60,143 nucleotides of DNA, taken from the NCBI GenBank assembly GCA_011620215.1, contig WOZP01000023.1:1-60143 (forward strand), in the 5' to 3' direction. Made by a program: the position numbers and the translations under genes. Numbering within the stretch: the stretch's first letter is position 1; every line of letters starts with the position of its first letter. Source of the stretch: Rugosibacter sp. Its GTDB lineage: Bacteria > Pseudomonadota > Gammaproteobacteria > Burkholderiales > Rhodocyclaceae. Of this stretch, positions 1,827 to 59,526 are shown in pieces. The notes below the pieces were generated by a model. The model saw only the letters and a program-made list of their open reading frames with translations. It ran no database searches and was not told where the DNA came from.

Positions 1827-1852
1827 CGCCGACTTACCAGCGCCGACTTTTT
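1827..1852 (-). repeat. 26-bp dispersed repeat copy 1, abutting tauE-like stop codon
   Basis: cgccgacttaccagcgccgacttttt. Confidence 0.8.
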
Positions 1853-2555
1853 ACACGTGACAAACAATGCCCTGCCACAGCTTGCCGCCGAGCGTTGCCG
1901 CATTGATAAGACCCCACACACCAAACAGCAACACTAAAAAACCACTCAGCAAACGCAAAGTACGCCCCTGTGTCAGACGACGAAAACGCACAAGCAACAG
2001 CCCCGCCAGCATGAGATTGGGCAGTGTACCAAGACCAAAGGCGAGCATGATCAAGGCACCGCGCACCGGGCCTCCGGAAAGCAGCGCCAGCGCCAGCACG
2101 CTATATACCAGCCCGCAGGGCAGCCAGCCCCACAGCATACCCAGTGGCAGGGCTTGTGCCACGCCATGCACAGGTAAAAAGTGACGTGTCAATGGCTGCA
2201 CGCGTCGCCACAGCCATTGTCCGGCACGCTCGACAAAAGCCAGCGTCTGCGTCATGCCGGTAAGATAAAGGCCAAGGCCAATCAGCATCAGATTGGCTGC
2301 TACATAAAGTGCCATCTGCACTGGCAGCCAATGATCAAGCAGCAGCCCGAGGCTGCCTATTGCACCCATCAAGGCGCCCGCGATCATGTAGCTGCCGATA
2401 CGGCCAAGGTTATAGGCCAAATGGATTGACCACGGCGTTTTTTGGCGAGGAAGCTGGACCGTCAGCGCGGAAACAATGCCACCGCACATGCCCGCACAGT
2501 GCACCCCACCGAGCAGCCCCACGAGGAATACCGCAAAAAAACCAGTGTCATACAT
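1851..2555 (-). CDS. Sulfite exporter TauE/SafE-like membrane protein (cbb3-associated type)
   Basis: GLLGGVHCAGMCGGIVSAL and LPLGMLWGWLPCGLVYSVL motifs; adjacent to the cco/hemN/fnr genes. Confidence 0.8.
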   Translation of the reverse strand: MYDTGFFAVFLVGLLGGVHCAGMCGGIVSALTVQLPRQKTPWSIHLAYNLGRIGSYMIAGALMGAIGSLGLLLDHWLPVQMALYVAANLMLIGLGLYLTGMTQTLAFVERAGQWLWRRVQPLTRHFLPVHGVAQALPLGMLWGWLPCGLVYSVLALALLSGGPVRGALIMLAFGLGTLPNLMLAGLLLVRFRRLTQGRTLRLLSGFLVLLFGVWGLINAATLGGKLWQGIVCHV

Positions 2556-2588
2556 TGAGTATCTGGTGCCGTCCTGTTTTGTGTATGC

Positions 2589-3977
2589 TCAAATCACTTT
2601 CGAGTAGCGAATCCGTTCCTGGTCAAAACGCAGATAGCGATCAAACACCATCGCAATGGCACGCACCAGTAGACGACCTGAAGGGTTAACAGTGATCCAT
2701 TGGTCAGTCACCGTGACCAAGCCCTCTTCTTCCATCGCCGCTAGCTCAGCTAATTCTGTCGCGAAATAGGATTTGAAATGGATCAAATGGGCAATCTCAA
2801 AAGCATCAATAGGCAAGATGAAATGACACATCAGTGCCTGAATGATACTGCGTCGCAACAAATCATCGGGAGTTAACTGAATTCCGCGCAACACAGGCAG
2901 TATGCCTTGATCAAGGCGATCGTAGTAATCATTCAAGGCGCGCACGTTTTGCACATAGCTGGGGCCTATTTTTCCGATAGCAGACACTCCGAAGGCGATT
3001 AAGTCTGCTTCAGCATGTGTCGAATACCCTTGAAAATTCCGATGCAAGCGCCCTTGACGCTGAGCGATGGCCAATTCATCTGTGGGTTTGGCAAAATGGT
3101 CCATGCCAATGAACACATACCCGGCATCTGTCAGGCGACGAATCGCCAGCTGCAGAATCTGCAAACGCCCGTCCGCAGTAGGTAAGTCGGCATCATTGAT
3201 GCGGCGCTGCGGCTTGGCCAGATTCGGCACATGGGCATAGCTGTAGATCGAGAGACGATCCGGGCCGAGCTTGATCACTTCATCCAGTGTGCGGTTAAAG
3301 CCAATCACATTCTGTTTAGGCAGGCCATAGATCAGATCCACTGCAAGGGACTTAAAACCGCAGTCACGTGCTGCATCCATGACACGCTTTGTTTCCTCGA
3401 GACTCTGGATGCGATTAACCGCTTTTTGCACTTCCGGCGCAAAATCCTGTACCCCAATGCTCATGCGATTAAAGCCAAGTTCAGCCAGTAGCGAGACCGT
3501 TGCCCCTCTGACTTTGCGCGGATCAATCTCGATTGAATACTCGCCCTCAGGCAACAGCTGGAAACGGCTATGGATCATATCCATCAGATGACGCATTTCG
3601 TCATCCGCAAGAAAGCTCGGCGAACCACCGCCCCAATGCATCTGGGCAACCTCGCGCGTGCCACCGAGGGCCGCCAGCGCCAGATCCATCTCCTTGCCTA
3701 AATAAGTAAGATATTTCGCTGAGCGACCGTGATCTTTCGTGATAATTTTGTTGCAGGCGCAGTAATAGCAGATTGTCGGACAAAACGGAATGTGAATATA
3801 TAGCGAGAGGGGGCGGCTAGGGGCCACCACGCCTCTCTGCCCTAGCCAATGCATGTAATGATCAGCCGTAAAAGCCTCAACAAAACGGTCAGCAGTCGGG
3901 TAAGATGTATATCTTGGGCCGTTTACATCGAAACGGCGAATCAGTTGACTGTCGAAAATGATTTCCTGATCATTCAT
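2589..3977 (-). CDS. hemN: Oxygen-independent coproporphyrinogen III oxidase
   Basis: Radical SAM motif CPTICYYCACN; full-length HemN architecture. Confidence 0.95.
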   Translation of the reverse strand: MNDQEIIFDSQLIRRFDVNGPRYTSYPTADRFVEAFTADHYMHWLGQRGVVAPSRPLSLYIHIPFCPTICYYCACNKIITKDHGRSAKYLTYLGKEMDLALAALGGTREVAQMHWGGGSPSFLADDEMRHLMDMIHSRFQLLPEGEYSIEIDPRKVRGATVSLLAELGFNRMSIGVQDFAPEVQKAVNRIQSLEETKRVMDAARDCGFKSLAVDLIYGLPKQNVIGFNRTLDEVIKLGPDRLSIYSYAHVPNLAKPQRRINDADLPTADGRLQILQLAIRRLTDAGYVFIGMDHFAKPTDELAIAQRQGRLHRNFQGYSTHAEADLIAFGVSAIGKIGPSYVQNVRALNDYYDRLDQGILPVLRGIQLTPDDLLRRSIIQALMCHFILPIDAFEIAHLIHFKSYFATELAELAAMEEEGLVTVTDQWITVNPSGRLLVRAIAMVFDRYLRFDQERIRYSKVI

Positions 3978-4040
3978 GGATTTTTAGGAATGTCTAAGGA
4001 TGAATGCTTTTCATGTTGCCGCAATCCTGCAGATGCCAAG

Positions 4041-4054
4041 TTGATCAAGGTCAA
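4041..4054. promoter_or_regulatory. FNR-like box TTGATCAAGGTCAA in hemN-fnr divergent region
   Basis: One mismatch to TTGATNNNNATCAA; lies between divergent hemN and fnr. Confidence 0.55.
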
Positions 4055-4098
4055 CAACCAAGTGGATTGAGGTATTATTTTGATGAATTGATTTAACT

Positions 4099-4824
4099 AT
4101 GACCGAAATTATCAAACTTCAACCTGCCTGTTCACAATGTAATTTACAGGAACTCTGTTTGCCCATCGGACTTTCAGAAGCTGAACTTTCCTTGGTAGAT
4201 AGCCTGGTGGATGAGCGAAGAAAAATTGCACGTGGCGAGGCAATTTTTCGTTCTGGCGACCGCTTCACGGCAATTTATGCAGTGAAACTCGGCTTTTTCA
4301 AAACCGAAGTCCTGTCTGAAGATGGCCGTCACCAGGTCACCAGCTTTTACATGCCGGGCGAAGTGTTGGGCATGGATGGCATTAGTGCAGAAACTCATCA
4401 TTGTGATGCCATTGCACTCGAAGATAGTGAAGTTTGTCTGATCCCATTTCATGAACTGGAAACGATTTCAGTCAAGGTCCCCACAATGCAACGTCACTTG
4501 CATCGGGTCATGAGTCGCGAGATTGTTCGCGATCAGGGAATGATGATGATGTTGGGCGCGATGCGTGCGGAAGAGCGCGTGATTGCCTTTTTGCTTAACT
4601 TGTCTCAGCGATATGCGGCTCGGGGTTATGCCGCTGCAGATTTCAACTTGCGTATGACTCGAGAAGAAATTGGTTCTTATCTTGGCTTAAAGCTGGAAAC
4701 AGTCAGTCGTACGTTTTCCCATCTCCAGGAAGAGGGATTGCTCCAGGTAGAGAAAAAGCATATTCGGCTCATGGATGCTGCCATACTTAAAAAAATGCTA
4801 TCGCAGGAAGGCATCGGTCGCTAA
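4099..4824 (+). CDS. fnr: CRP/FNR family transcriptional regulator, FNR type
   Basis: N-terminal Cys cluster CSQCNLQELC, cNMP-like domain, HTH EEIGSYLGLKLETVSRTFS. Confidence 0.93.
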   Translation: MTEIIKLQPACSQCNLQELCLPIGLSEAELSLVDSLVDERRKIARGEAIFRSGDRFTAIYAVKLGFFKTEVLSEDGRHQVTSFYMPGEVLGMDGISAETHHCDAIALEDSEVCLIPFHELETISVKVPTMQRHLHRVMSREIVRDQGMMMMLGAMRAEERVIAFLLNLSQRYAARGYAAADFNLRMTREEIGSYLGLKLETVSRTFSHLQEEGLLQVEKKHIRLMDAAILKKMLSQEGIGR

Positions 4825-4855
4825 TACAGTCCGTACTCTGCAATTCCCTTGGACA

Positions 4856-5101
4856 CTACGTTTTTTGATCGGCACCCTTGAATTCTTGTGCAGTATGCAG
4901 AAGATAGCAAGTCGCCATGCTGGAAGCAGCACAAATCACCCAGAAACAAAAAAAACCAATGGAATAAGTTGTAAGGCTGGAAAAGTGAACGGGCTCGCCA
5001 AACAAATAAAGCTCCTGCGGGTCAATCAGTGTAAAAAAGATCCCCTCAGCAATGCCGGCAACCAAAAAAGATGGCCACAGCACGGATAAGATATTTTGCA
5101 T
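4856..5101 (-). CDS. Small membrane protein near cco cluster, unknown function
   Basis: MQNILSVLWPSFLVAGIAEGIFFTLIDP..., hydrophobic segments, same strand as the cco genes. Confidence 0.55.
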   Translation of the reverse strand: MQNILSVLWPSFLVAGIAEGIFFTLIDPQELYLFGEPVHFSSLTTYSIGFFCFWVICAASSMATCYLLHTAQEFKGADQKT

Positions 5102-5175
5102 CGCGTCTCCCCTGTTTGAAATCAAACATTGTTTTGATAATTATCGCGTGACCGGTTTAGAATGGTTTCTTCTGA

Positions 5176-7112: not shown

Positions 7113-7180
7113 GCTTAATATCCGTAGTTGATCAATTCTAACTAGCTGTGCACATGAAAAAATTGAAGATTAAATATTCT

Positions 7181-8143: not shown

Positions 8144-8343
8144 GATGTTTTCTCTTCCTGTTTTTCGTTTCCTTGCCTGACTGATATGGCTTCTGATGCC
8201 AAAGGGCTATCATCATCAAGGGGGATCCTCGCTGCTTGGTCATAGGCCTGTTTACGACGATCGGAATAAGCCCACCAGACAATGCCAATGAAGATCAGAA
8301 ACAACAGCACCGTGATTACAGAACGCAAATTATTGATATCCAT
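8140..8343 (-). CDS. ccoQ: cbb3 oxidase subunit CcoQ/FixQ
   Basis: MDINNLRSVITVLLFLIFIGIVWWAYS..., between ccoO and ccoP. Confidence 0.9.
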   Translation of the reverse strand: MDINNLRSVITVLLFLIFIGIVWWAYSDRRKQAYDQAARIPLDDDSPLASEAISVRQGNEKQEEKTS

Positions 8344-8357
8344 TTTTGTGCCTCTGC

Positions 8358-8969: not shown

Positions 8970-9003
8970 AGGGTCGAGCTCCAGTTTTATTCTGCGGTAT
9001 GAC

Positions 9004-10847: not shown

Positions 10848-13325
10848 TTATCTCTTGCCTTGTAGACGCAAGGCATTGAGCACCACCAGAAAGGAGCTCG
10901 CTGACATCCCAATCCCGGCCATCCATGGACTCACCCAGCCGATCATGGCGAGCGGAATGGCAACCAGATTGTAGATAAAAGCCCAGATCAGGTTCTGCTT
11001 TACGATGCGCACAGTTTGTCGTGCCAGCGCCACCCCAGGGGCCAGCGCTGCCAAATGGTTGCCCAGCAGCACAATATCGGACTGCGCTCGCGCCAGATCA
11101 GCACCACCGCCCATGGCAATGGACACTTGGGCTTTTGCCAGCACGGGTGCATCATTAACACCATCGCCAACCATCGCGACAACAGCTCCCGTTGCCTGCA
11201 AAGCAGTCACTGCTGCGTGCTTGTCTTCAGGAGTCATTCCGCCGCGCGCGTCATCAATACCCAAGGCGTGAGCAACCCGCTGCACAGCAGCAAAAGCATC
11301 GCCGCTAAAGATTGAAAGCGTTACACCAGTTCGCCGCAAGGCAATCATCGACGTAGCGGCGTCTGGACGCACATCATCATTTAAGCAAAAAAAAGCCTGC
11401 CATCCAGCGGCAGAACCCAGCGCGATCACCGTATCACCAGCGCCGACTTTTTGTTCAATATTCAGCGGCAATGATTTTTGGTGGAGACACGCCACAAAAT
11501 CCAGTCGCCCCAGTCGCCATTCAGTAGCATCGATAAAGCCTAGCACGCCGGCGCCAGTCACGGCGCTCACATTGCCTACAGGCGCAATAGTCTCTGCAGC
11601 ATGCCGCAAAGCACGGCCAATAGGATGCTCCGAACCCTGCTCCAGCCCTGCTGCCAGGGCAAGCGCAGCTTCTGGCGTACCACGGCATGTGATTGTTTCG
11701 ACCAGTGCCAGCTGGCCCAGCGTCAGCGTACCGGTTTTATCGAATATGAAATGATTCGCTTGCGCCAGTGTTTCAATGGCATGCCCGCGGGTTACCAGCA
11801 CGCCACGTGCAGCCAAAGCACCGGTGGCTACCGTTAAAGCCACCGGCGTAGCCAGCGATAGCGCACAAGGGCAGCTCACCACCAGCACAGAAACGAACAC
11901 CCATAACGCCTGGGCCGGATCAAGCTGCCACCAGATCAACGCTGTCGCCGCTGCCAGTAACAATACCGTCACAACGAAACGTCCGGCGATACGATCCGCC
12001 ATATGCACTACTTGCGGCTTTTCTGCTGCGGCCCGTTCCATCAATCGTGTAATCGCGGCCAGTCGTGTATCCTGGCCCAGACGCAGCACGCGCATCGCCA
12101 GCGGGCTGGTCACATTGACACTGCCACCAATAAGCTCATCGCCCACTACTTTAGGTAATGGCCGACTCTCCCCAGTGAGCAATGACTCGTCAGCCGCACT
12201 GCCCCCCTCGATCACTTCACCATCTGCGGGAATACTTTCACCGGGGGCTATCCGCAAGACATCACCGACACAGAGTTCAGCTGCCGCCACCCGCTCGCAA
12301 GCCACTTCTGGCCAGCGCACAAACCGTGTTGCCAGTGTCGGCATGGCGCGCGCCAGTGTCTCGACACTACGTACTGCTTTTTGTCGAGCCATCATTTCAA
12401 GATACCGGCCGGAAAGCAGGAAGAAGACAAACATGGTGACCGAATCAAAATATACCTCGCCACTACCCGACAGCGTTGCCCACACGCTCGCAGCAAACGC
12501 ACTTCCCACCCCCAATGCCACAGGGACATCCATGCCGAGTCGACGCAATGTCACATCGCGCCAGGCATTGGCAAAAAATGGTGCCGCAGAATAAAGTACC
12601 ACCGGCAAGGTCAGAATGAGGCTGGCCCAGCGCATCAATTGCTCAATGTCTGGCGTCATGTCGCTGCCAGTCTCTGTTTGCGCAAAATAGACCGGGATGA
12701 CATACATCATCACTTGCATCATGCCAAAACCAGCGACGAACAGCCGCCAAAGCGCCGTCTTGCGTTCTTGCTGCGCCAGACTTTCTGAGCGCGCCACATC
12801 GTAAGGATGCGCCCGATAACCAATAGCGGCAATGGCTTCGAGCAATTTGGAGAGCTTCGTTATCCGCGTATCCCACCGCACCCGGGCACGGCGTGTGGCG
12901 TAATTGATATCGACCGAAGTCACGCCCGGCTGGCGGCGCAAATGCGCTTCGTTAAGCCAAACGCAAGCGGCGCAGGTAATGCCTTCAAGTATCAGCGCCG
13001 CCTCTCGCTCATACTCTCCAGCGACCTGAACAAAGCTTTTCTGCACCTTGGGATGATCAAACAAACCCAGTGCCTCTAAAGCAATGGGTAACGCTTCGCG
13101 AGGACTTTCCGGCAACGCATCGCGGTGACGGTAATACTCGGTGAGCTGGTTATCGACTATCGCCTGCGCCACCGCCTGACACCCGGTACAGCACAGCACG
13201 CGCGGTACGGCATCAATGGTGATGAAGATTTTTGTTTCTGGAGGAACAGGCAAGCCGCAGTGATAGCAGAAAGCATCAATAGATTCGATAAAACGCCCCC
13301 CCAAAATCCATCTCTCGCCGGGCAA
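10848..13325 (-). CDS. ccoI: Copper-translocating P-type ATPase CcoI/FixI
   Basis: DKTGTLT, SCPCALSLATP, GDGVNDAPVLA; N-terminal CYHCGLPVP and CAACVWLNE motifs. Confidence 0.94.
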   Translation of the reverse strand: MPGERWILGGRFIESIDAFCYHCGLPVPPETKIFITIDAVPRVLCCTGCQAVAQAIVDNQLTEYYRHRDALPESPREALPIALEALGLFDHPKVQKSFVQVAGEYEREAALILEGITCAACVWLNEAHLRRQPGVTSVDINYATRRARVRWDTRITKLSKLLEAIAAIGYRAHPYDVARSESLAQQERKTALWRLFVAGFGMMQVMMYVIPVYFAQTETGSDMTPDIEQLMRWASLILTLPVVLYSAAPFFANAWRDVTLRRLGMDVPVALGVGSAFAASVWATLSGSGEVYFDSVTMFVFFLLSGRYLEMMARQKAVRSVETLARAMPTLATRFVRWPEVACERVAAAELCVGDVLRIAPGESIPADGEVIEGGSAADESLLTGESRPLPKVVGDELIGGSVNVTSPLAMRVLRLGQDTRLAAITRLMERAAAEKPQVVHMADRIAGRFVVTVLLLAAATALIWWQLDPAQALWVFVSVLVVSCPCALSLATPVALTVATGALAARGVLVTRGHAIETLAQANHFIFDKTGTLTLGQLALVETITCRGTPEAALALAAGLEQGSEHPIGRALRHAAETIAPVGNVSAVTGAGVLGFIDATEWRLGRLDFVACLHQKSLPLNIEQKVGAGDTVIALGSAAGWQAFFCLNDDVRPDAATSMIALRRTGVTLSIFSGDAFAAVQRVAHALGIDDARGGMTPEDKHAAVTALQATGAVVAMVGDGVNDAPVLAKAQVSIAMGGGADLARAQSDIVLLGNHLAALAPGVALARQTVRIVKQNLIWAFIYNLVAIPLAMIGWVSPWMAGIGMSASSFLVVLNALRLQGKR
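11427..11452 (-). repeat. 26-bp dispersed repeat copy 2, inside ccoI
   Basis: caccgtatcaccagcgccgacttttt. Confidence 0.88.
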
Positions 13326-17305: not shown

Positions 17306-17331
17306 CGCCGTCTCATCAACGCCGACTTTTC
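17306..17331 (-). repeat. 26-bp dispersed repeat copy 3, upstream of SNF2 gene
   Basis: cgccgtctcatcaacgccgacttttc. Confidence 0.8.
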
Positions 17332-22503: not shown

Positions 22504-25500
22504 TCAAGCGGCAAGTACAACAGGCCGCGATTGACGAAATGCCTGCAAACGCTGCGCCTGTAACATTTTGGCTGCAGCAATGCTTTTCTCTTTGACATGC
22601 CCGTAGCCACGAATCTCATCAGGCACACTCACCAACAAAACAGCTGCCGCATAGTTGGCAGGTGTGAGTTGCGACGCAACCTCGTCAAGCAACTGAATGT
22701 AGTCTTCGATCATCTGCTGCTCGTGACGACGCTCTTCTGTCTTGCCAAAGATATCCAACTTGCTGCCGCGCAGAAATTTCATTTTGGCAAGCAGCTTGAA
22801 TGCCTTGAAAATCCAGGGACCGAATACACGCTTTTGTAGCTCGCCGGTGATCGGATCACGCTTGGAGATCAGCGGAGGAGCTAAGTGATATTGTGCTTTA
22901 TAGCCAGCCTTGAACTGGGCATCCAGTTTGGCTAAAAACGCCGGGGCGGTGTGCAAACGCGCAACTTCGTATTCATCCTTGTAAGCCATCAACTTGTAGA
23001 GATAGCGCGCAGCGGCCTCACTGAAACTCGTGTCACCGACATTCGCCGTTTTCTCGGCGCTGGTGACACGGCGAATAACCTCCGTGTAACGCTTGGCATA
23101 GGCGATATTTTGATACGCAATGAGTTCAGGCACGCGTATTTCAAGCAAGCGCTTGAGCTCACCCTGCGCCGCCACAGAATCAACCAGCGCACGAGCAGGC
23201 GCGCTCGACGCCGGGGCTGGCGACAATATACTCACGCTCGCCGGTGCTGTACCCTTGCTGGCTTCGGCCTGCACAAACGCGTAATCAACCACCGCCATGC
23301 GGCCCCAGCGGAAGGCCGCCAAGCCCATCTCAACACCCACACCCGCTTGCTGAATCGCCGTCTCAATAGAGGCCGCCAGCAGCGGCAAAGCCCCCGCCTG
23401 GAAGGCCACGCCGACCATAAACAAGTTGGTTGCCATACTGTCTCCAAACAACCCTTCAGCCAGCCCTTGGCCATCAAGAAACACATTGTCGTTCGCGCGG
23501 CTCACCCGCGCGATGCCCGCCATTAAACCCTTCAAGCCGGGGAAGGCCACGTGGCGATTAGTCACCATCTGCCCCGTCGGTGTCTCGGTGGTCGAAACAA
23601 TGGCAATAGTACGTTCAGGGTGACACTTATCCAGATTCTTTGGGTCTGTCGCGTTGAGAATATCAAAGCCGAGATAAAGATCGGCGCACCCGTCAGAAAT
23701 TTTATTGGCCCCGCTGAAAGGTAATGCCGTGATCTTGATATCAGAAATCACCGCACCCCCTTTTTGGGCCAGGCCTGTCTGGTCCAGACCAATCACGTGG
23801 CGGCCTTCTAGCCGCGCGGCGTTGGCAATCGTGGCAGCCACCGTCACCGAACCCGTGCCGCCGATGCCCATCAAGTGCACACCAAAATCACCCTGTACCT
23901 TGAATACAGGCTCAGGCAGGTTCCGCTCCAGTGCGGGAATCTGTGCTTTTTTCTTTTTACGGGGCGCATCCGTCGCCTGCGCTGCATCAGCCACCGGCGT
24001 GATGGTCATAAACGAAGGGCAAAACCCTTTAACGCATGAATAATCCTTGTTGCAAGAACTTTGATGGATACGCGTCTTGCGGCCAAACTCTGTGGGTATC
24101 GGCTCGATACTCATGCAGTTGGCCTTTTCACCACAATCACCACAACCTTCGCACACGCGCTCGTTGATGATGATGGTTTGCACCGGCTCTTCAGCCTTGC
24201 CCCGGCTGCGCGAACGGCGCAATTCAGCGGCGCACTCTTGATCATGAATCAGCATCGTCGTGCCCTTGATCTGCGCCAGCAAACGCTGCGCTTCATCAAG
24301 CCGGTCACGGTGCCAAACCTCCGTGCCACTCACCAGGCTGACGCCTTGGTAGAGCTCGGGATGATCCGTGGTGATAATCACCTTTTTGACGCCATTCGCC
24401 AGCGACTCGGACACGATGTCCGCCACTGGATGGCTGCCCATGATGGCTTGCCCGCCGGTCATTGACGTGTGCCCGTTGTAGAGCAACTTGAACGTGATGT
24501 TGACCCCGGTTGACGCCGCATAACGGATTGCCATGCTGCCCGAATGGGCGTAGGTGCCGTCCCCCATGTTCTGAAAAATATGCTCTGTCTCGGTAAATGG
24601 CGCCATGCCAACCCACTGCGCACCTTCAGCGCCCATATGTGTGCCCATCACCACATTGCGGCCCATCCACATCGCCATCGTGTGGCAGCCAATACCTGCC
24701 GAGACGATGCTGCCTTCAGGTGCGATGGTTGAGCTGTTATGCGGGCAACCGGAGCAGAACCAGGCGGTGCGTACTGCCGTGGGCAATTTGCTGCGCGCAT
24801 GAATTTCATCCAGCCGCTGGAGCCATGCATCGGCTGACTCGATACGCGCCTTGCGCGACAAACGTTGAGTCAACGCACGTGCAATGACGTCGGATTCAAA
24901 TTCACCATAGTGCGGCAGCAGCTCTTGTTCTTCCTCATCGAATTTCCCGACAATGCGAGGGGCATTTACACTACCGTAAAGAATATTCTTGGCAAACATC
25001 TCAAGAAACGGCCGCTTCTCTTCAATCACAAAAATCTCTTCCAGGCCTTGCGCAAACTCACGCACAACCATGGGCTCCATCGGGAACAACATGCCCATCT
25101 TCAAAATGCGGATGCCATAGCGGCGTAGCGCCGCATCGTCCAGCCCCATTTCAAGAAAGGCCTGGCATAAATCGTGATACGTCTTGCCGGCAGTCATGAT
25201 GCCCAGCCAGGCGTCTGCATTCGGGAACACCACATTGTTCAGATTATTCTCACGCGCATAGCGCCGCGCTACTTCCAGCCTGCGGGTATAGAGCGACTGC
25301 TCCATCTCCAGCGCTTCAGCGCGCACATTCATGCCCAAATTCATGCGCGGGGTAAATGGTTTGCCGTCGAACATCATGTCTGGGGTAATAAACTTCAGCC
25401 GCTCGGGAGTCACGTCCGCAGTGCCTGAACCATCCGCCACATTCGTCACAATTTTCAGGCCGATCCACAAGCCTGACAAACGCGACAGATTGTAGCCATG

Positions 25501-28303: not shown

Positions 28304-28329
28304 GAAAAGTCGGCGCTCGTGATACGGCA
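28304..28329 (+). repeat. 26-bp dispersed repeat copy 5, intergenic between selD and IS630 remnant
   Basis: gaaaagtcggcgctcgtgatacggca. Confidence 0.85.
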
Positions 28330-29080: not shown

Positions 29081-30397
29081 ATGAAAACGCTTACCCGTTT
29101 GTCCCGTCCGCGTTTAGCGCGTTTAACTTTTGTTGCGCTTGCCCTGCTCCTCCTGGCTGTCATCTCTTATGTCGCGTGGCATTTTTTTGCCGACGCTGGC
29201 GAGACGCTGAAATTCAAGCAGGCCAAGGTTGAAGTTGGCCCTATCACAGCTGCGGTATCGGCTACAGGCACCCTCAATCCAGTCGTTTCAGTACAGGTGG
29301 GCTCGCAGGTCTCTGGCCAGATAAAAGAAATCCTGGTGGACTTCAATTCACCAGTGAAGGCAGGCCAGTTGATCGCCCGTCTTGACCCGGAAACCTATCG
29401 CCAGCGCGTGATTCAAGCGCAGGCAGACACAGAAGCGGCACGCGCTAACCTGGCCATGCAGCAGGCGGATGTCCTCCGTGTCCAGGCGAATCTGGTTGAT
29501 GCTCAACGCGATTACGCGCGCAAAAAATTGCTGGTGGAAAAGAAATTCATCTCGCCAGCCGATCTTGATAAAGCACAAACCACATTCGATGCAGCCGCAG
29601 CGGCGCTACGCGTTGCCCAAGCGCAGGCGCTCAGTGGCGCAGCACAGGTCCGCCAGCGTCAGGCCCTGCTGGCGCAAGCGCAGGTGGATTTAGGTCGCAC
29701 TGAAATTCGCTCACCAGTGGATGGCGTGGTGGTCAAACGTAGTGTAGATACGGGGCAAACGGTTGCCGCCAGCCTGCAGGCACCCGAGCTTTTTATCATT
29801 GCCAGAAACCTGAGTGACATGCAGGTGGAAACCTCAGTGGATGAAGCCGATGTGGGGCGTATTCAACCAGGCCAAAACGTGAGTTTTACCGTTGACGCCT
29901 TTCCTGGGCAGCACTTTGCGGGACAGGTCAAGCAAGTACGCAAGGCGGCGTCGATTGTTTCCAATGTCGTGAGCTACACCGTGGTTGTTTCCGCAGCTAA
30001 CCCCGATCTCTTGCTGCTGCCCGGCATGACGGCGAATGTACGCATCATCACGGCGCACAAGGACAATGCACTCAAAGTACCTAATGCCGCATTACGTTTC
30101 AACCCGCCGGCAAACAGCGATGAAAAAGGCGATAAAAAGAACATGTCCGGCGTCTCACCAGCGCCGACTTTTTCTAAGCGAGGGAAAGACCGCAGCGAGG
30201 GCAGTCGCGTATGGGTGCAGGATAAAGACGGCAAGCCCAGCGCCGTCACGGTGCGTCTTGGCCTCACTGATGGCAGCATGACCGAGATTATCGCGGACAA
30301 TAGCCAGATCACCGCAGGCAGTGAGGTCATCGTCGGGATGCAAAGCACTGCTCGCAGCAAATCTGCCGCAGGCGCGCCTGGCCCGCGCATGTTCTGA
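29081..30397 (+). CDS. HlyD/MacA-type periplasmic adaptor subunit
   Basis: VSVQVGSQVSGQIKEILVDFNSPVKAGQLIARLDP; hairpin/lipoyl/barrel layout. Confidence 0.92.
   Translation: MKTLTRLSRPRLARLTFVALALLLLAVISYVAWHFFADAGETLKFKQAKVEVGPITAAVSATGTLNPVVSVQVGSQVSGQIKEILVDFNSPVKAGQLIARLDPETYRQRVIQAQADTEAARANLAMQQADVLRVQANLVDAQRDYARKKLLVEKKFISPADLDKAQTTFDAAAAALRVAQAQALSGAAQVRQRQALLAQAQVDLGRTEIRSPVDGVVVKRSVDTGQTVAASLQAPELFIIARNLSDMQVETSVDEADVGRIQPGQNVSFTVDAFPGQHFAGQVKQVRKAASIVSNVVSYTVVVSAANPDLLLLPGMTANVRIITAHKDNALKVPNAALRFNPPANSDEKGDKKNMSGVSPAPTFSKRGKDRSEGSRVWVQDKDGKPSAVTVRLGLTDGSMTEIIADNSQITAGSEVIVGMQSTARSKSAAGAPGPRMF
30148..30173 (-). repeat. 26-bp dispersed repeat copy 6, inside MacA-like gene
   Basis: cggcgtctcaccagcgccgacttttt. 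Confidence 0.88.
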
Positions 30398-33857: not shown

Positions 33858-36296
33858 ATGAGCAACGAAACTCCCGACCTGTTCGACAACCTGGCCGACG
33901 AAAATCCACCGCCGCCTGCCGTACCACCAGCGCCGACTTTTTCGGATGACTTTGGCAATGGCAATTCATTAGCATTGGACACCTATGCCGAGCGCGCCTA
34001 TCTCGCCTATGCGATGAGCGTGGTGCGCGGGCGCGCATTGCCGCAAGTCGAGGATGGCTTAAAGCCGGTGCAGCGGCGCATCCTGCATGCGATGAATGAA
34101 ATGCGCCTGGCGGCCAGTGCCAAGCATGTGAAGAGCGCGCGCGTCGTCGGCGATGTGATCGGCAAATATCACCCGCATGGCGACACCAGCATTTATGACG
34201 CGATGGTGCGCGTGGCGCAGGATTTCACGCTGCGCTATCCGCTGATCGACGGCCAGGGCAACTTCGGCTCGCGCGATGGCGATGGTGCGGCGGCGATGCG
34301 CTATACCGAATGCCGGCTGACGCCGATTGCAGAATTGTTGCTCGCCGAAATCGACCGCGGCACGGTCGATTTCCTGCCCAATTACGATGGTTCGGCAACC
34401 GAGCCGCAACTCTTGCCCGCGCGCCTGCCCTTTGTGCTGCTGAATGGCGCATCCGGCATCGCGGTCGGCATGGCGACGGAAATTCCGCCGCACAATTTGC
34501 GCGAAGTGGCCGAGGCGGTACGCCTGCTGATCAAAAAACCCAACGCCACGCTGGATGACGTGCTCGCCGTGTTGCCGGGGCCGGATTTTCCCGGTGGCGG
34601 GCAGCTGATTTCGCCGGTTGCGGATATTCGGGAGATGTATGCCAACGGCCGAGGCAGCGTGCGCATGCGCGCCCGCTGGCATGTGGAAGAGCTCGCCCGG
34701 GGACAATGGCGCTTGGTAATTGACGAATTGCCGCACGGCGTCTCGGTCGCCCAAGTCTTGTCAGAAATTGAAAGCCTGACCAACCCGCAACCCCGCGCGG
34801 GGAAAAAGGATGTGAGTCAGGAACAGAAAAATCTCAAAGCACTGGTACTCGGCGTACTGGATACAATCCGCGATGAATCGAGCGATCAACAGGCTGTACG
34901 CATCATGCTGGAGCCAAAAAGCTCACGTCTCACGCAGGAAGAATTCATGGGCGTGCTGCTAGCGCACACCAGCCTGGAAGCAAATGTCTCCATCAACCTG
35001 ACCATGATGGGGTTGTATGGCGAAAACGGGGGCCGTCCGCGCCAAAAAAGTCTGCTGCAAATATTGCATGAGTGGATCGCCTATCGCTTTGCCACGGTGG
35101 AACGCCGCACTCGCCATCGGCTGGCCGAAGTGGAACGCCGAATTCACATTCTGGAAGGCCGCATGCTGGTCTTTTTAAAAATCGATGAAGTCATCCGCTG
35201 CATCCGCGAGGCAGACGACCCCAAGGCGGATCTGATTGCGCGCTTTGGGCTCACCGAAACGCAAGCCGAAGACATCCTCGAAATCCGCCTGCGTCAGCTG
35301 GCGCGTCTGGAAGGTATACGCATCGAGAAGGAACTCAACGAGTTGCGCGAAGAACATGGGCAGCTCATCACTCTGCTCGAATCACGCGCGGAAATGACGC
35401 GCTTGATTCTGAAAGAAATCAACGAGGATGCCAAGCGTTTTGGCGATGATCGCCGCACCTTTATGCGGCCGGAAGCCACCACTAATCGCAATCGTGAAGT
35501 AGCGGCACCCGATGAGCCAGTTACCGTCATTATCTCGAAAAACGGCTGGGTACGCGTACGACAAGGGCATGACATTGATCCCGCGACACTCAACTACAAA
35601 GCCGGTGATGCAGCAGGCTGGATTGTCCCTTCACGTACGGTGTGGCCGCTGGTCATCATTGACAGTAACGGCCGCAGCTACAGTTTGAAGGTCGCCGATT
35701 TACCCAGTGGCCGTGGCGATGGCACACCACTGAATACACTGCTCGATTTTCAGGATGGGGGCAAACTCGCACACGTTATCAGTGGCTTGCCAGAAGATAA
35801 ATATCTGGTCGCCAGTTCAGGTGCTTATGGCTTTATCACCCGTATCGCGGACATGATGTCGCGCAATAAAGCGGGCAAAGTATTCTTGACGCTGGAAAAA
35901 GACGAGCGACCTTTGACGCCTGCAAAAGTCGGCGCTAGTGAAACGGCGAACACGGCGGGCACGGTGAACACGGCAGACACGGCAGACACGGCGCATCAGA
36001 TGGTCGCTGTGCTCTCTGAGGGTGGCAGATTGTTGATGTTTGCGCTGACCGAGCTTAAAGAAATGGCACGCGGTCGTGGCTTGATGCTGATTGATCTGGC
36101 CAAGAAAGATGCTTTGGCCGGAGTGGCCTTGGTAAGCAAAAATCCCTTGTATCTGCAGGGCGTTGGCCGTGCTGGAAAACCGGTTGAATCCGTTCTGGAG
36201 CCACGCGCTCAAGTCGCTTTTCACGGTAGTCGCGCGCGTCGCGGACAAGAAATTCCTTTCAAACTCAAACCTACCGGCCTGTTCGCTGGCCGGTGA
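33858..36296 (+). CDS. parC: DNA topoisomerase IV subunit A
   Basis: [30 protein letters not shown]...[11 protein letters not shown]. Confidence 0.95.
33917..33942 (-). repeat. 26-bp dispersed repeat copy 7, inside parC N-terminal extension
   Basis: tgccgtaccaccagcgccgacttttt. Confidence 0.88.
35923..35948 (+). repeat. 26-bp dispersed repeat copy 8, inside parC C-terminal domain
   Basis: caaaagtcggcgctagtgaaacggcg. Confidence 0.85.
35949..35993 (+). repeat. Five tandem 9-bp units (consensus aacacggcg) inside parC
   Basis: aacacggcg|ggcacggtg|aacacggca|gacacggca|gacacggcg; encodes [15 protein letters not shown]. Confidence 0.85.
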
Positions 36297-42249: not shown

Positions 42250-44421
42250 CTATTCAGTTTCTGCTCGCTGCTCGCGTTGCCAATAGGCGCGAATCACTAG
42301 CCAAAGCACTGTCACGCCGCCCAACAAAACCAGCAGTATCGGCCATGGGGCAGGCTGATTCCATTCGGCACGTTTTATTGTCCGTAAGCCAGCGTCCACA
42401 CGCTGATATTTCAAGGTATTGTTGCCCACCTTGCCTGGCTTTCGATTTGTCAGCCAAACATGCTGCAAACTGTAATCCTTCGGATGAAATCCCCATATCC
42501 ACGGCGTATCTTTACGCAGTTGTTCCACCATCTGATCAATCAACATCTGGCGTTGTGGACTATTTTCCATTGTCTGCATCTGCGCGAATAAAGCATCATA
42601 GGCAGGATTGTTGTAATTGGCGGCATTCGATCCATCATGCAGTACCGCCGACTGCTGACTGGACAGTAAAAAAAGGAAATTTTCCGGATCGGGATAATCC
42701 GCATTCCAGCCAAAATAAAAAATCTGCGCAGCACCCTTGCGTATTTTTTCCTGAAACCGGTTGTAATCCGTATTTCGCACCACTAACTGCACATTGATTT
42801 GGCTGAGCTGTTTGTTCAACCAATCCATCCGCGCTTTTGAGCCAACCCCTGTCGCCGTTGTATCAAGGTAGATCACCAGAGGTTCACCGGTAGAGGCATC
42901 CCGCCCGTTCGGCCAACCCGCTTCAGCCAGCAATCGCTTCGCCTCAGCAATGGACTTACGTCGCGCCTGGCCGTTAACCCAGTCGTACATCGTGCGATTA
43001 ATACCCCCAGCGCCTTCACGATAGCCGAAGATACCTGGTGGGATCGGTCCTTGTGCCGCAACGCCACGACCGTTTTGAAAAATCGAGATGAATTCCTCTT
43101 GATCGATGGCAATTGAAATCGCCTGCCTCAGTTTGCGTGCACGTTCAGCTGTTGCTGGGTTACTACCACCGACGAGCGGATCAAGCCAGTTAAATCCCAT
43201 ATAAAACGTTGACGTGGCAACAGACGTTGATAAGGTAATGCCTTGAGCCTGCATGGCATCGGTGAGTGTTGCTTCGCCACCACCCGTGACTTGCACAGCC
43301 TGGTCAAAAGAATCAGAAGATATGCCCGATGCATCATAATAACCTTGCAAGAATTTATTCCAATACGGAATCTGCTCTTTTTCGCGGGTGAAAACAATCT
43401 GATCGATAAAAGGTAAGCGCTTGCCGCAATCCTTTAGCAGCCCAGCCTTCTCATCTTCCGGCTCGCCCTCACAGGGATAGTGCTCTTCGTGAAAATTAGG
43501 ATTTCTCTGCAACACCATGCGCGCATTCGGATCGTTTTCCGTCAGCATGTAAGGACCTGTGCCTATGGGATACCAGTCCAGTGTCAGATTTTTTTCTTGC
43601 ATGCCTGGCTGGCTATAAAACTTGTCTGCCTCCCAGGGCATAGGCGAAAAAAATGGCATCGCCAGCCAGTAAAGAAACTGCGGGTACTTGCCCTTGATCC
43701 GAATTCGATAATGGTATTTATCGATCACTTCAGCCCCGGCAAGGGAATATTTGCGCAAGTCTAGCCAGTCATCACGCCGTATCACCAGCGCCGACTTTTG
43801 CAGGCTCTTGGCAAAATCACTTAGCCCGACGACATAACTGCTCATCAACCCCAGAATAGGCGAATGCAGATGCGGATGTCCCAGCCGCTTTATGCCATAA
43901 ACGTAATCTTCAGCGATCAGCTCTCGTGTATCTTGCGCAGCGAAATCAGCCATCGTCGTGATGTGAGAAAGCTGTTCAGTAGATAAATCGTGATACAGAT
44001 AACCTGCGACGGGATTGCGCGCAAAGGCCGCATGTGGCTGATAGCGAATACCTCGCTTGATGGCAATAACGTAATCCGTAAAAGCAATCTGCGCTGCCGG
44101 GCTGTTTGCGGGCAACTCTTTTCCCTGAGCATCAAGATAGCGTGGCTGCGGGACGGCCTCAGCCGTTGCCGGAATCAACGCATACGGGCGCTTGAGGTAG
44201 TGATATTGTAGCGGCGGCTCGTAAATCTGGGCAGTAAAAGTAATTTCGTCTTCGCTATACGACTGCACCGGGTCAAGATGTTTTGGGCGATCAATAAACG
44301 CGGTGTATAAGATGTTTTTTCCACGCTCCACCGCAGGATACGGATTGTTCCACGCCTCTCCACAACCTGTCAGAAACAAGGCAAGTAAAGTAAAAAGCAC
44401 TGCGCGAAATGGTCTCGACAT
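42250..44421 (-). CDS. ABC transporter substrate-binding lipoprotein, SBP family 5
   Basis: Lipobox LTGC; peptide-binding SBP pattern; C-terminal TM anchor. Confidence 0.88.
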   Translation of the reverse strand: MSRPFRAVLFTLLALFLTGCGEAWNNPYPAVERGKNILYTAFIDRPKHLDPVQSYSEDEITFTAQIYEPPLQYHYLKRPYALIPATAEAVPQPRYLDAQGKELPANSPAAQIAFTDYVIAIKRGIRYQPHAAFARNPVAGYLYHDLSTEQLSHITTMADFAAQDTRELIAEDYVYGIKRLGHPHLHSPILGLMSSYVVGLSDFAKSLQKSALVIRRDDWLDLRKYSLAGAEVIDKYHYRIRIKGKYPQFLYWLAMPFFSPMPWEADKFYSQPGMQEKNLTLDWYPIGTGPYMLTENDPNARMVLQRNPNFHEEHYPCEGEPEDEKAGLLKDCGKRLPFIDQIVFTREKEQIPYWNKFLQGYYDASGISSDSFDQAVQVTGGGEATLTDAMQAQGITLSTSVATSTFYMGFNWLDPLVGGSNPATAERARKLRQAISIAIDQEEFISIFQNGRGVAAQGPIPPGIFGYREGAGGINRTMYDWVNGQARRKSIAEAKRLLAEAGWPNGRDASTGEPLVIYLDTTATGVGSKARMDWLNKQLSQINVQLVVRNTDYNRFQEKIRKGAAQIFYFGWNADYPDPENFLFLLSSQQSAVLHDGSNAANYNNPAYDALFAQMQTMENSPQRQMLIDQMVEQLRKDTPWIWGFHPKDYSLQHVWLTNRKPGKVGNNTLKYQRVDAGLRTIKRAEWNQPAPWPILLVLLGGVTVLWLVIRAYWQREQRAETE
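43775..43800 (-). repeat. 26-bp dispersed repeat copy 9, inside ABC substrate-binding gene
   Basis: cgccgtatcaccagcgccgacttttg; 25 of 26 match consensus. Confidence 0.92.
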
Positions 44422-46242: not shown

Positions 46243-47898
46243 ATGTTGCAGCGCCTGATCATTCGTGACTTTGTTATCGTCGACCAGCTGGAATTGGAAT
46301 TCAGCCACGGGTTTGGCGCCCTCACGGGTGAAACCGGCGCGGGCAAATCCATTCTCATTGATGCCTTATCTCTTGTTCTGGGCGAACGTGCGGATGCCTC
46401 CGTCATCCGTACTAGTGCTGAGCGTGCCGAAGTTACCGCCGAATTTAATGTGGTTGAGAACAGTGCGCTGGCGAGCTGGCTAGAGACCAATGACTTTGAT
46501 ACCGCCACCTGCTTGTTGCGCCGTATCATTGACCAGAGTGGTCGTTCCCGGGCCTATATCAACGGCACGGCCTCGACGCTGGGGCAATTACGCGAAATAG
46601 CGACTTTTCTGGCAGATATCCATGGTCAAAACGCGCATCATTCGTTGCTCTACCCTGAAGCACAGCGTGCCTTGCTCGATGCCCACGCAGGTGCCCAAGA
46701 CTTGTTACACGAAGTAGCAACCACCTACACTGCCTGGCGTCAAGCTCGTGAAGCCAGGCAAGCCGCCATGACTGATAGCGAAGCATCTGCACGCGAGCGT
46801 GAGCTGCTTGAATGGCAAGTCAAAGAATTGACCGCACTTGCTTTCAATGCTGAAGAATGGCAAGAAACGGAAACTGAACAACGCCGTCTGGGCAATGCCA
46901 GTGCATTGCTTGAAGCAGCTAGCGCAGCACTAGTCGTTCTCGATGAAAGTGAAACAGCGGCGCTATCGGCCTTGCAGCATGCGGGCGCACGCCTGAATGA
47001 ACTAGTCACGACAGACCCGGCACTGAGCGATGCCGCCAGACTTTTCGACAGTGCAGTCATTCAGCTCGAAGAGTCGGCGCTGGCACTACGGCGTTATCAA
47101 GATCATCTGGAGCTTGATCCTTCACGATTAATCGAGCTTGATAGCCGAATAGATGCCGTGACACAAATGGCGCGCAAATATCGTGTGCCGCCAGCCGAAC
47201 TCTCAGCATTACTCGCTCGACTAACGGCCCAGCTTGACGAGATCAGCTTGCGCGCCGACCCTGCTGCTCTGGCTGAACGCGAACAGGTCACGGAAGCCGC
47301 CTATCTTGCCGTCGCTAAAAAATTGTCGGCCTTGCGCGGCGAAACTGCCAAGCGCCTATCCCAAGCGGTCAGCTCCAGCATGCAAGAGCTGGCAATGAGT
47401 GGCGGCCAGTTTTCTATTGCACTGGAAGCACTCAGTGAAGGCGCTTCATTTGGTCTGGAAAGTGTTGAGTTTCAAGTCGCCGCCAATACGGGCCAGATGC
47501 TCCGCCCGCTGGCAAAAGTCGCCTCGGGCGGCGAGCTCTCGCGCATTGGGTTGGCGCTGCAAGTCATTGCCAGCCAGGCCAATCCGGTCGGCACCTTGAT
47601 ATTTGACGAAGTGGATGTCGGCATTGGCGGCCGCGTCGCCGAAATTGTGGGTCGCATGCTACGCGACCTGGGCAAAACCCGTCAGGTACTGTGCGTCACC
47701 CACTTGCCTCAAGTTGCTGCACAGGCCGACTGGCAGTGGTCGATTGTCAAAGAAACGCGCAATGCGGTTGTCGTGTCGTCAGTCCGCATACTGGATCAAG
47801 CATCGCGCGTGATAGAGATTGCGCGCATGTTGGGCGGCGAAAAAATCACCAGCACAACACAGCGCCATGCGGCAGAAATGCTGGGGCTTACCGAGTAA
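46243..47898 (+). CDS. recN: DNA repair protein RecN
   Basis: LTGETGAGKSILIDALSLVLG; C-terminal VASGGELSRIGLALQVI...FDEVDVGIGG. Confidence 0.96.
   Translation: MLQRLIIRDFVIVDQLELEFSHGFGALTGETGAGKSILIDALSLVLGERADASVIRTSAERAEVTAEFNVVENSALASWLETNDFDTATCLLRRIIDQSGRSRAYINGTASTLGQLREIATFLADIHGQNAHHSLLYPEAQRALLDAHAGAQDLLHEVATTYTAWRQAREARQAAMTDSEASARERELLEWQVKELTALAFNAEEWQETETEQRRLGNASALLEAASAALVVLDESETAALSALQHAGARLNELVTTDPALSDAARLFDSAVIQLEESALALRRYQDHLELDPSRLIELDSRIDAVTQMARKYRVPPAELSALLARLTAQLDEISLRADPAALAEREQVTEAAYLAVAKKLSALRGETAKRLSQAVSSSMQELAMSGGQFSIALEALSEGASFGLESVEFQVAANTGQMLRPLAKVASGGELSRIGLALQVIASQANPVGTLIFDEVDVGIGGRVAEIVGRMLRDLGKTRQVLCVTHLPQVAAQADWQWSIVKETRNAVVVSSVRILDQASRVIEIARMLGGEKITSTTQRHAAEMLGLTE
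47068..47093 (+). repeat. 26-bp dispersed repeat copy 10 (weaker), inside recN
   Basis: gaagagtcggcgctggcactacggcg. Confidence 0.5.
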
Positions 47899-52169: not shown

Positions 52170-52271
52170 AGTGTGGGATCGCGTAATGTTGCGGTGCGGA
52201 AAAGGCGCGCATTCTACCATGTTAAAACTTAGTGTTCGCAGCTTTTCTGCTTGAATTTTCAGGAGATTTTG

Positions 52272-53536: not shown

Positions 53537-53548
53537 ATTGAGCCTCGT

Positions 53549-55158: not shown

Positions 55159-56288
55159 GACAATAACCGATCAAAAGTACCTTCATAAATCTGGGCTAAG
55201 TGCTCAAGTTCTGCAACGGCAATGTGCTCATCAATTTTGTGAATGCTTTCATTGGTCGGCCCGAATTCGACAAGTTGACTGCATATATCCGCAATGAATC
55301 GGCCATCAGATGTACCCCCGGTTGTCGCCAGCGCAGGCGTAATCCCGGTCACCTGTGTAATGGATTCAGATATCGCGGCACACAGCGGACCGCGCAAGGT
55401 GAGAAATGGCTTGGCACCCAGTGTCCAGTGGATGTCATACGCTAAACCATGCCGGTCAAGCAGACCATGCACGCGGGCTTGCAAATCTTCTGCCGTGCTG
55501 GCGGTAGAAAAGCGAAAGTTGAACCATAGCTCGAAAGTGCCAGGGCTCACGTTATTTGCCCCGGTACCGGCATGCGCATTGGAAACCTGCAAGCTGGTCG
55601 GCGGAAAATCTTCGTTGCCCTCATCCCATGTCATTGCAACAAGTTCTGCCAACGCAGGTGCTGCCAGGTGCACGGGATTTTTCACGAGATGCGGATAAGC
55701 TACATGCCCCTGCACCCCTTTCACCGTCAGTTTGGCCGAGAGCGATCCACGCCGACCATTTTTGACAATGTCACCCAGTTGATCAACGCAGGTGGGTTCG
55801 CCAACAATGCAGTAGTCAATTGTCTCACCGCGCGCCTTGAGCGTCTCGACAACCCGCACAGTGCCATTGATCGCATCGCCCTCTTCATCCGAAGTTAGCA
55901 GCAAGGCCAAAGAGTCGGCGCTGGTGATACGGCGCGCCAGTAATCGCTCAATCGCAACAACGCATGCAGCAATCGAGCTCTTCATGTCTGCTGCGCCACG
56001 CCCATAAAGATAGCCATCGCGAATTTCGGGCGTAAACGGGGGAGACGTCCATTTTTCAAGCGGGCCCGTTGGTACCACATCGGTGTGCCCGGCAAAACAA
56101 ATAATTTTTCCGTGCGGATGACTGCCACGTCGTTTTGCCCATAAATTGGACACGCCACCGTGATCCATTCGCTCAATAGAAAAACCGAGCGGCATTAACC
56201 ACGCGGCAATCAGATCAAGACAGCCAGCATCTTCAGGGGTAATCGAGGCACAGGCAATCAGCGCCTGAACTTTTTCAAGAACCGGCAT
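55155..56288 (-). CDS. dapE: Succinyl-diaminopimelate desuccinylase
   Basis: [46 protein letters not shown]. Confidence 0.96.
55909..55934 (+). repeat. 26-bp dispersed repeat copy 11, inside dapE
   Basis: aaagagtcggcgctggtgatacggcg; 25 of 26 match consensus. Confidence 0.92.
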
Positions 56289-57460: not shown

Positions 57461-57481
57461 TCCCCCTTTATCGTACTGATG

Positions 57482-58313
57482 CTAGTCACGTAAAAGTTCG
57501 TTAATGCTAGTCTTGGCACGCGTTTGTGCATCAACTCTTTTAACAATCACCGCGCAATACAGACTGTACTTCCCATCAGCAGACGGCAAATTGCCACTCA
57601 CCACGACGGATCCTTCAGGCACACGCCCATAAGTTACTTCGCCCGTGGCACGGTCATAAATTTTCGTGCTCTGGCTGATATACACGCCCATGGAGATAAC
57701 GCAATTATCTTCAACGATCACACCTTCAACAACTTCAGAGCGCGCGCCGATAAAACAATTATCACCAATAATAGTCGGGTTAGCCTGCAAAGGCTCAAGC
57801 ACGCCACCAATCCCCACACCGCCGGAAAGATGAACATTTTTACCTATTTGTGCACATGAACCGACGGTTGCCCAAGTATCCACCATCGTGCCTTCATCAA
57901 CATAGGCCCCAATATTGACGTAGCTGGGCATAAGTACCACATTCTTGCCAATAAAGCTGCCGCGACGAGCAACCGCTGGTGGCACAACGCGAAATCCCCC
58001 CTTTTCAAATTGATGCGTATCGTAATAAGAAAATTTCGTCGGCACCTTGTCGAAATAGCGCATCGGGCCATTCTCCATGAGCACATTTTCTTCCAGCCGA
58101 AAAGAAAGCAGCACCGCTTTTTTTATCCACTGATGCGTTACCCAATCGTCATTGATCTTCTCGGCAACGCGCAATACGCCGCTATCCAACTCGCCCAACA
58201 CATGTGCAACCGCTTCGCCAACGTGTGCAGGTGCAGTGCCCGGTTTCAAATTGGCGCGATTTTCCCACGCCTGTTCGATGATCGGTTGTAAATCATTCAG
58301 CGGTTTGTTCATA
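57482..58313 (-). CDS. dapD: 2,3,4,5-tetrahydropyridine-2,6-dicarboxylate N-succinyltransferase
   Basis: Hexapeptide repeat core [45 protein letters not shown]. Confidence 0.96.
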
Positions 58314-58323
58314 TGTTTTTCTT

Positions 58324-59526
58324 TCACAAAGAGAGACAAAAATCGTTAATGCGATGCGCAGCCTCAATACAGTCTTCCAGGCTGGTCACGAGTGCCAAGC
58401 GAATAAAATTTTCACCCGGATTAATACCATCAGCAACTCTTCCAAGGTAACTGCCTGGCAGCACTGCAACATTTTTCTGCTGCAAAAGCTGGCGCGCAAA
58501 TTCAGTGTCCGCGATCGGAGTTTTCGCCCACAGATAAAACCCGGCATCGGGAATAGTGCAAGGCAAATGGCGCGCGATAAGTGGCGTAACCGCTGCAAAT
58601 TTTTCCGCATATCGACGCCGGTTATCTTGTACATGCGCTTCATCATTCCAGGCCGCGATACTCGCCGCTTGCACCGCCGGATTCATCGCGCCGCCATGGT
58701 AGGTGCGATAAAGTAAAAACTTCTTCAGAACTTCGGCATCACCAGCGACAAATCCCGAGCGCAACCCGGGAACATTTGATCGCTTGGATAAACTCGAGAA
58801 AACAACCAGATGGCGATAGTCGTCACGCCCGAGTTGTTTAGCTGCGGTCAATGCACCCAAGGGAGGCGCATTTTCATCACTATAGATTTCGGAATAACAC
58901 TCGTCCGATGCAATCACAAAATCATGACGATCCGCGAGAGCAAACAGCGCGCGCCACGACTCCAGCGTCATCACATTGCCAGTCGGATTGGCGGGCGAGC
59001 ACACATAAACCAGCTGCACATCACGCCAGACCGACTCCGCAAGCGCAGTCCAGTCCATAGCGAAGCCGTTTTCCGGCAAAGTGTTCAGATAAATCGGCTC
59101 GGCGCCCGCTAACAAAGCGGCACCTTCATAAATTTGATAAAACGGATTCGGACAAACGACTTTTGCCTGAGGACGCGTGCGGTCAATAACCGTCTGGGCA
59201 AATGCAAACAGTGCCTCGCGCGAGCCATTCACGGGTAGCACTTGAGTCTCCACATCCAAAAGAGGCACAGCATACCGACGCGCAATCCATTGTCCGATCG
59301 CCTCACGCACACCGCGCGTACCTTGCGTATTTGGATATTGCGCTAATCCTGCAAGATGTTCGGCCAGCGCCTGCTGAATGAGAATGGGTGTGGCGTGCTG
59401 CGGTTCGCCGATCGAAAGTCGAATTTCGCGAAAAGTCGGTGCTGGTGACACGCCAAGGCACAATTGACGCAGCCTTTCAAACGGGTAAGGCTGCAACCGA
59501 GCGAGATCCGGATTCACAGATAGCAA
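58324..59526 (-). CDS. dapC: Succinyldiaminopimelate transaminase
   Basis: [14 protein letters not shown]-lysine region [23 protein letters not shown]. Confidence 0.93.
59430..59455 (+). repeat. 26-bp dispersed repeat copy 12, inside dapC
   Basis: gaaaagtcggtgctggtgacacgcca. Confidence 0.75.

Follow-up and report, generated by a model that had tools for sequence, protein, structure and literature searches.

A 25-bp sequence, AAAAGTCGGCGCTGGYGANACGGCG, is dispersed over a 60,143-nucleotide stretch of Rugosibacter sp. DNA (NCBI GenBank assembly GCA_011620215.1, contig WOZP01000023.1; "the window" below means this whole stretch) and throughout the genome that contains it. From its sequence and distribution, the repeat is probably a DNA-uptake-signal-type sequence, and would then represent a putative third independent uptake system. 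Sequence-specific DNA uptake has been described for two bacterial families only, the Pasteurellaceae, whose signal is the uptake signal sequence (USS), and the Neisseriaceae, whose signal is the DNA uptake sequence (DUS) (PMC7811141). Our literature search turned up neither an account of uptake sequences for this lineage nor one that describes the motif as a genomic repeat. In favour of the uptake reading, loci are conserved between species under a constraint that acts at the level of DNA, and the comparison of orthologous loci gave no clean empty site; foreign islands lack the motif, and different genera carry different dialects of it.

The 25-bp unit and its abundance

Alignment of the copies revealed a unit with sharp edges and the consensus AAAAGTCGGCGCTGGTGAnACGGCR, flanked by positions that each carry at most ~0.3 bit. 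An earlier sequence-only reading of the window had given the unit as 26 bp; it is 25 bp, because the first base of that 26-mer carries no information. In sampled stretches of G007, a complete relative of 2.93 Mb, the weight-matrix consensus was AAAAGTCGGCGCTGGTGANACGGCG with an information content of 35 bits, far above the ~13 bits that by our own arithmetic would suffice for marking ~450 sites.

Several controls were performed to compare the number of copies with background. The 14-bp core GTCGGCGCTGGTGA, allowing up to three mismatches, matched the window 25 times against 6.7 expected, and this count was reached by none of 100 dinucleotide shuffles of the window. At more than 16 bits, the weight matrix detected 90 sites in 424 kb and 0 in simulated sequence. 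When synonymous codons were permuted within the window's own genes, a procedure that preserves every protein and the codon usage, a mean of 0.13 strong coding sites (maximum 2) was obtained against 8 in the real genes. In the host genome, a 2.38-Mb draft of 220 contigs (the window being contig 64) at 90% completeness, the core occurs 255 times when up to one mismatch is allowed (134 forward, 121 reverse), and the reversed control 4 times. The possibility that the repeat is not enriched over background therefore fails on both the genome-wide count and the codon shuffle.

The motif extends well beyond the host. Each of the 9 genomes in the host genus has between 130 and 304 core copies. Elsewhere in the family most genera lie close to background, and two other genera hold 460 and 575 full-length copies (control 0); motif words top the list of over-represented 11-mers in these genomes. 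The sampled 1.2 Mb of G007 contains 179 copies. Twenty further stretches of the host genome were picked for an exact core, which biases their density upward, whereas conservation was not conditioned on the relative. In public genomes, exact 22-mer matches fell almost entirely within Rugosibacter, Sulfuritalea and other Rhodocyclales-labelled assemblies, and the NCBI taxonomy places Rugosibacter in the Sterolibacteriaceae, Nitrosomonadales, Betaproteobacteria. An exact motif was also seen in 114 viral-contig stretches (L351-L430), and these may represent either phages that infect these hosts or host DNA included in the collection.

Within the window, all 12 places named by the sequence-only reading are present in the orientation it assigned. 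Its division into 10 strong and two weaker copies is revised: 11 of the 12 are full copies, the one it placed at 23048 lacks the A-tract (TTTTCTCGG...), and those it placed at 17306 and 47068 are weaker yet well above background. The copies are listed below.

1827..1851, (-): motif AAAAGTCGGCGCTGGTAAGTCGGCG, at the stop codon of gene 1851-2555(-)
11427..11451, (-): motif within a P-type metal ATPase gene, reading QKVGAGDTV
17306..17330, (-): intergenic motif with 2 core mismatches
23049..23073, (+): partial copy, right 19 bp intact and A-tract lost, in an indolepyruvate-ferredoxin oxidoreductase-like gene
28305..28329, (+): intergenic motif
30148..30172, (-): motif in open reading frame (ORF) 29081-30397(+), reverse-strand reading SGVSPAPTF
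33917..33941, (-): motif close to the 5' end of parC (topoisomerase IV subunit A), reading PAVPPAPTF
35924..35948, (+): motif near the 3' end of parC, reading AKVGASETA
43775..43799, (-): perfect motif in a family-5 solute-binding protein gene, reading QKSALVIRR
47069..47093, (+): motif in a RecN/SMC-like gene, reading EESALALRR
55910..55934, (+): motif in ORF 55155-56288(-), reading RRITSADSL
59431..59455, (+): motif in ORF 58324-59526(-), reading LGVSPAPTF

A near-match, AAAATCCGGCCCCGGCAACACGGCG, lies at 34565-34589 (-) in parC, over sequence conserved among parC orthologues and presumably over the conserved protein motif GPDFP. Its score is higher in G007 and lower in other relatives, and we read it as a chance near-match.

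Conservation, dialects and motif-free DNA

Orthologous loci were compared between species. The least redundant of these comparisons is that of G000 with G007, in which the flanks are ~0.82 identical: the site was kept at 23 of 26 loci, motif identity was 0.93, and it exceeded that of the flank at 18 of 19 ungapped loci. At 28 coding loci, identity at third-codon positions was 0.929 within the motif compared with 0.647 for flanking sequence, with little difference at first and second positions, and the constraint therefore acts on DNA. Presence or absence at orthologous loci, a comparison that the sequence-only reading had proposed, was scored, with homology assigned by flanking sequence only, in 340 comparisons from 129 query loci, many of which view one locus from different genomes and are hence non-independent. 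The relative held the full site in 309 of them and a clean deletion of the unit, that is, an empty site, in none (0/340); same-length substitution differences accounted for 10 pairs at 5 loci, and the remaining comparisons had internal insertions or poor flanks.

Individual copies of the window illustrate this retention. The perfect motif at 43775 occupies the identical place in 8/8 relatives, down to ~73% overall identity; the G007 copy has additional bases, in frame, close to its 3' end. The parC copy at 33917..33941 is ungapped in 5 of the 6 relatives aligned, and the copy at 47069 is kept in 8/8 relatives. Conservation of the encoded residues in distant orthologues does not account for the copies in general; only the copy at 47069, in the recN-like gene, resembles protein-driven conservation, and it is the sole copy whose retention protein constraint may assist.

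Two alignments read by eye bear on how copies originate. In uvrC the motif encodes KVGAGETA where a motif-less relative reads KVATGETV, and in a biotin-carboxylase-like gene KVGAGET stands where a relative reads RVAAGEK. From such alignments, copies look like the product of substitution at pre-adapted sites, the direction of change being polarised at some loci only. USS are reported to evolve by point mutation (PMC7811141), and many recent DUS seem to be recombination-derived (PMC2397512).

A search of 200 family genomes for AAAAGTC-N12-ACGGCG, the two ends of the motif around any middle, highlighted dialects. Most genomes had 0-3 copies, as did the reversed control throughout, and high counts were obtained in G018 (287), G151 (254), G104 (199) and G016 (584). 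The genus of G018 (g11) is without the host motif and carries AAAAGTCAGTCCCnnnnnnACGGCG instead, with the same 25-bp frame and a different middle; a third dialect, AAAAGTCGACGCTGG..., was found in G077. DUS dialects in the Neisseriaceae are likewise built from positions that stay constant and positions that vary (PMC3630211). G151 and G104 belong to g11 as well, and G185, a fourth species of this genus, has no copies. Two species of genus g20 (G111 and G189) are likewise nearly motif-free, against G216, which has the motif. These motif-poor species are natural cases in which loss could be studied. Across 300 genomes of the order, abundant copies were confined to this family. Handfuls of copies occur in G284 and G237, which belong to other families of the order, with two dialects in G284; these stray copies look like transfer or mis-binning.

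Long motif-free gaps of 26-89 kb were identified in the G007 stretches, and these hold prophage, conjugation, metal-efflux and transposase/surface-sugar genes, as read by eye from the N-terminal sequences of our own gene calls:

82 kb gap: tail-tape-measure-like gene and SMC-like gene
75 kb gap: TrbE/VirD4-like conjugation genes
89 kb gap: three resistance-nodulation-division (RND) metal-efflux pumps
28 kb gap: surface-sugar-like genes and a transposase
26 kb gap: includes a copper-ATPase-like gene

DUS are absent from recently acquired genes (PMC2397512), and conjugative elements have been located through atypical DUS distributions (PMC7371117). A further sequence, TAGTGTCCGGTTAA, occurs at 10 separate places in the G007 stretches 1-800000 and 1780001-2180000 and is probably an insertion-sequence end.

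The uptake reading and its rivals

The sequence-only reading had offered three candidates. The comparative data favour the uptake-type signal, they disfavour a mobile repeat as the source of the 25-mer, and a protein-binding site is kept as a rival. Strand parity, the high information content, the use of all five open frames, the mutual avoidance of copies at less than 1 kb and the full-length ComEC of the carriers also speak for uptake. Under the uptake reading, a surface DNA receptor on a type-IV-pilus/ComEC transformation system would bind the repeat as a genome-wide self tag; the pilus receptor would recognise AAAAGTC...ACGGCG, and the middle would set the dialect. Tagged DNA would be taken up preferentially and recombined into the chromosome, and such recombination would keep tags in the core genome and push near-matches toward the consensus by molecular drive.

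Regarding the machinery, ComEC is full length in 9/9 members of the host genus and in the other carriers searched, and in almost every member of the family covered by the search, ComP_DUS-family pilins were detected whether or not the genome carries the motif. A minor pilin ending in CWV-x3-GGxC seemed to be a carrier-specific receptor among the first ComP_DUS matches; this link was dropped because its profile also matches many non-carriers, at more than 130 bits. Loss of the motif could not be tied to loss of competence either: G185, motif-free in a motif-rich genus, retains ComEC, as do the motif-poor G111 and G189.

Several observations weigh against an uptake function. Relatives that lack the motif have a full-length ComEC as well, so that its presence is not discriminating. 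The profile search of carriers and non-carriers yielded no carrier-specific receptor, and no pilin subtype tracks the motif. The density of about 1 copy per 5-6 kb is 5-10 times below that of DUS or USS, and the motif is longer. Approximately 10% of G007 copies are interrupted in frame by inserts that are no prediction of the uptake model. Finally, other genome-wide DNA-binding systems could also yield dialects and site conservation.

The last point leads to the rival that survives best, although we consider it rather unlikely: a binding site for a genome-wide chromosome-organising, recombination or replication protein outside DNA uptake, with sites kept by selection for that function. Chi, KOPS (FtsK-orienting polar sequences) and matS are short words recognised genome-wide by DNA-processing proteins; Chi and KOPS are 8 bp and strongly strand-biased, and matS is confined to the terminus. 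A co-evolving DNA-binding protein would also account for strand parity, DNA-level constraint, genus dialects and the repulsion of copies at less than 1 kb (8 such gaps where 22 would be expected in one G007 stretch, and 1 where 7.7 would be expected in the other). However, the copies are strand-balanced in both G007 stretches sampled, so that a strand bias like that of Chi or KOPS is absent, and they occur in all sampled regions rather than in a single domain as matS does. In addition, 35 bits are far beyond the need of a locus-finding protein, and the near-total absence of the motif from sister species (G185; G111/G189 against G216) fits an essential function poorly.

A short mobile repeat of the Rickettsia palindromic element (RPE), miniature inverted-repeat transposable element (MITE) or repetitive extragenic palindromic (REP) type, spread by insertion and then decayed, would explain the sharp boundaries and the longer in-frame variants that share modules at unrelated G007 loci. 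RPE use all open frames, and so does the 25-mer: all five are occupied, with preferences, KVGAGDTA and the reverse reading AVSPAPTF being the commonest, and the frame that reads TGA is nearly unused (3 copies). Nevertheless, this origin is distinctly unlikely for the 25-mer, given the lack of any clean empty site, the same-length differences at orthologous codons and the third-codon conservation described above. Motif scores are also bimodal with few decayed copies, the aligned copies show no target duplication or flank preference, and the 25-mer has no palindrome, no inverted ends and no significant fold (z-score -1.37).

That the motif is a site for a transcription regulator, or an RNA element (terminator, leader or protein-binding mRNA site), is very improbable. 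Using our own simple codon-usage gene caller, 250 copies were divided into 153 inside genes, 87 intergenic and 10 spanning a gene end, in sequence that is ~83% coding. Copies outside genes are thus over-represented (35% of copies in ~17% of the sequence), often lie just downstream of stop codons and are rare between divergent genes, which would suit such an element. Against it, 61% of copies are in coding regions and spread throughout genes, their orientation relative to the gene is even (77 versus 76), and position inside genes showed no dependence on orientation (p 0.40). The promoter-bearing divergent regions are depleted, with 7 copies against 17 expected by length, and an Rfam search of the window returned 2 tRNAs only, with no match at the motif copies, which also lack a significant fold. 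Inverted DUS or USS pairs serve as transcription terminators; no inverted pairs closer than 400 bp were found in the G000 and G007 stretches, and G008 has one pair of perfect motifs in this arrangement, 12 bp apart (L159 2547-2608). Chance combined with codon bias or protein homology, which the sequence-only reading had rejected, can be dismissed as practically negligible, since the 255 copies against 4 in the control, the codon-preserving shuffles and the third-codon conservation refute it, even with two places over conserved protein (the recN-like copy at 47069 and the parC near-match at 34565).

The insertions call for a separate description. Split copies are fewer in G000 than in G007, and the inserts usually keep the frame and lie mostly between AAAAGT and CGGCG or after GATACG. 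The same module can be found again at loci that are unrelated, and one module, CCGCGAAGCAAGTACCCTTGGGGTG, is present in either orientation; further examples are TCCCGAAGGGACGCA, CTTGAGTCCGTCACTGGA and TATGCGCAGCGGTATCC... (L144/L276 and other G007 stretches; L161 and L175 of the host genome). At a given locus one species may have the long form and another the short, and such differences run in both directions. In a uvrC-like gene (L091, ~2690-2950), a relative has an in-frame insert of more than 200 bases, including modules, where G007 has a single 25-mer. Hairpins seen by eye in the modules were not significant by folding, except for one marginal case (z -2.2). A distant parallel comes from Neisseria, in which one element has an attachment site apparently shaped to make use of DUS motifs (PMC7371117).

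A wider form of the uptake reading can be put forward only tentatively: a third, independently evolved uptake-signal system whose dialects have radiated within one betaproteobacterial family and whose tag doubles as a landing site for small in-frame modules, so that tags and a mosaic repeat family might co-evolve. If the uptake reading is true, a third case would be added, independent of the other two and with several genus dialects, in environmental hosts known mostly from groundwater and lake metagenomes. Whether uptake tags owe their evolution to sex, repair or selfish drive, a long-standing question, would then become testable outside host-associated bacteria. The motif would further make it possible to recognise foreign islands and contaminant sequence in these metagenome-assembled genomes, and would point toward a new class of DNA receptor.

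Comparison with known systems

The motif core contains GCTGGTG, close to the Escherichia coli Chi sequence GCTGGTGG; however, the motif is 25 bp and strand-balanced, unlike Chi, KOPS and matS. It resembles RPE in being dispersed, in lying within coding regions in several frames, and in having extra in-frame modules in some G007 copies, and differs from them in that the 25-mer is non-palindromic, strongly constrained in sequence and free of insertion/empty-site polymorphism. Like the Pasteurellaceae USS (PMC7811141), the motif combines an A-rich stretch with a G+C-rich core, seems to evolve by point mutation, is underrepresented in newly acquired segments and has reading-frame preferences. The two are unrelated in sequence and lineage, and USS has a 9-bp core every ~1 kb, whereas the motif is informative over nearly all of its 25 positions.

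The comparison with the Neisseriaceae DUS is the closest in pattern, although the consensus AAAAGTCGGCGCTGGTGANACGGCG has no sequence relation to the DUS word GCCGTCTGAA with its invariant CTG core, so that the motif is not a DUS by sequence. It is a two-part 25-bp word (AAAAGTC ... ACGGCG) compared with 10-12 bp for DUS, it numbers ~440-580 copies compared with ~1,000-6,000, close inverted pairs are absent from the G000 and G007 stretches (one pair in G008), the host family is different, and the uptake role is here a predicted one. As with DUS, the motif is an abundant genome-wide word found in both orientations, in and between genes, with TGA in one frame (PMC3630211, PMC2397512); nearly all DUS dialects carry UGA in one frame (PMC3630211). 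It is likewise conserved far above its surroundings, the corresponding DUS figures being 97% versus 85% (PMC2397512), it is missing from recently acquired DNA, and it occurs in a betaproteobacterial host as genus dialects built around constant core positions.

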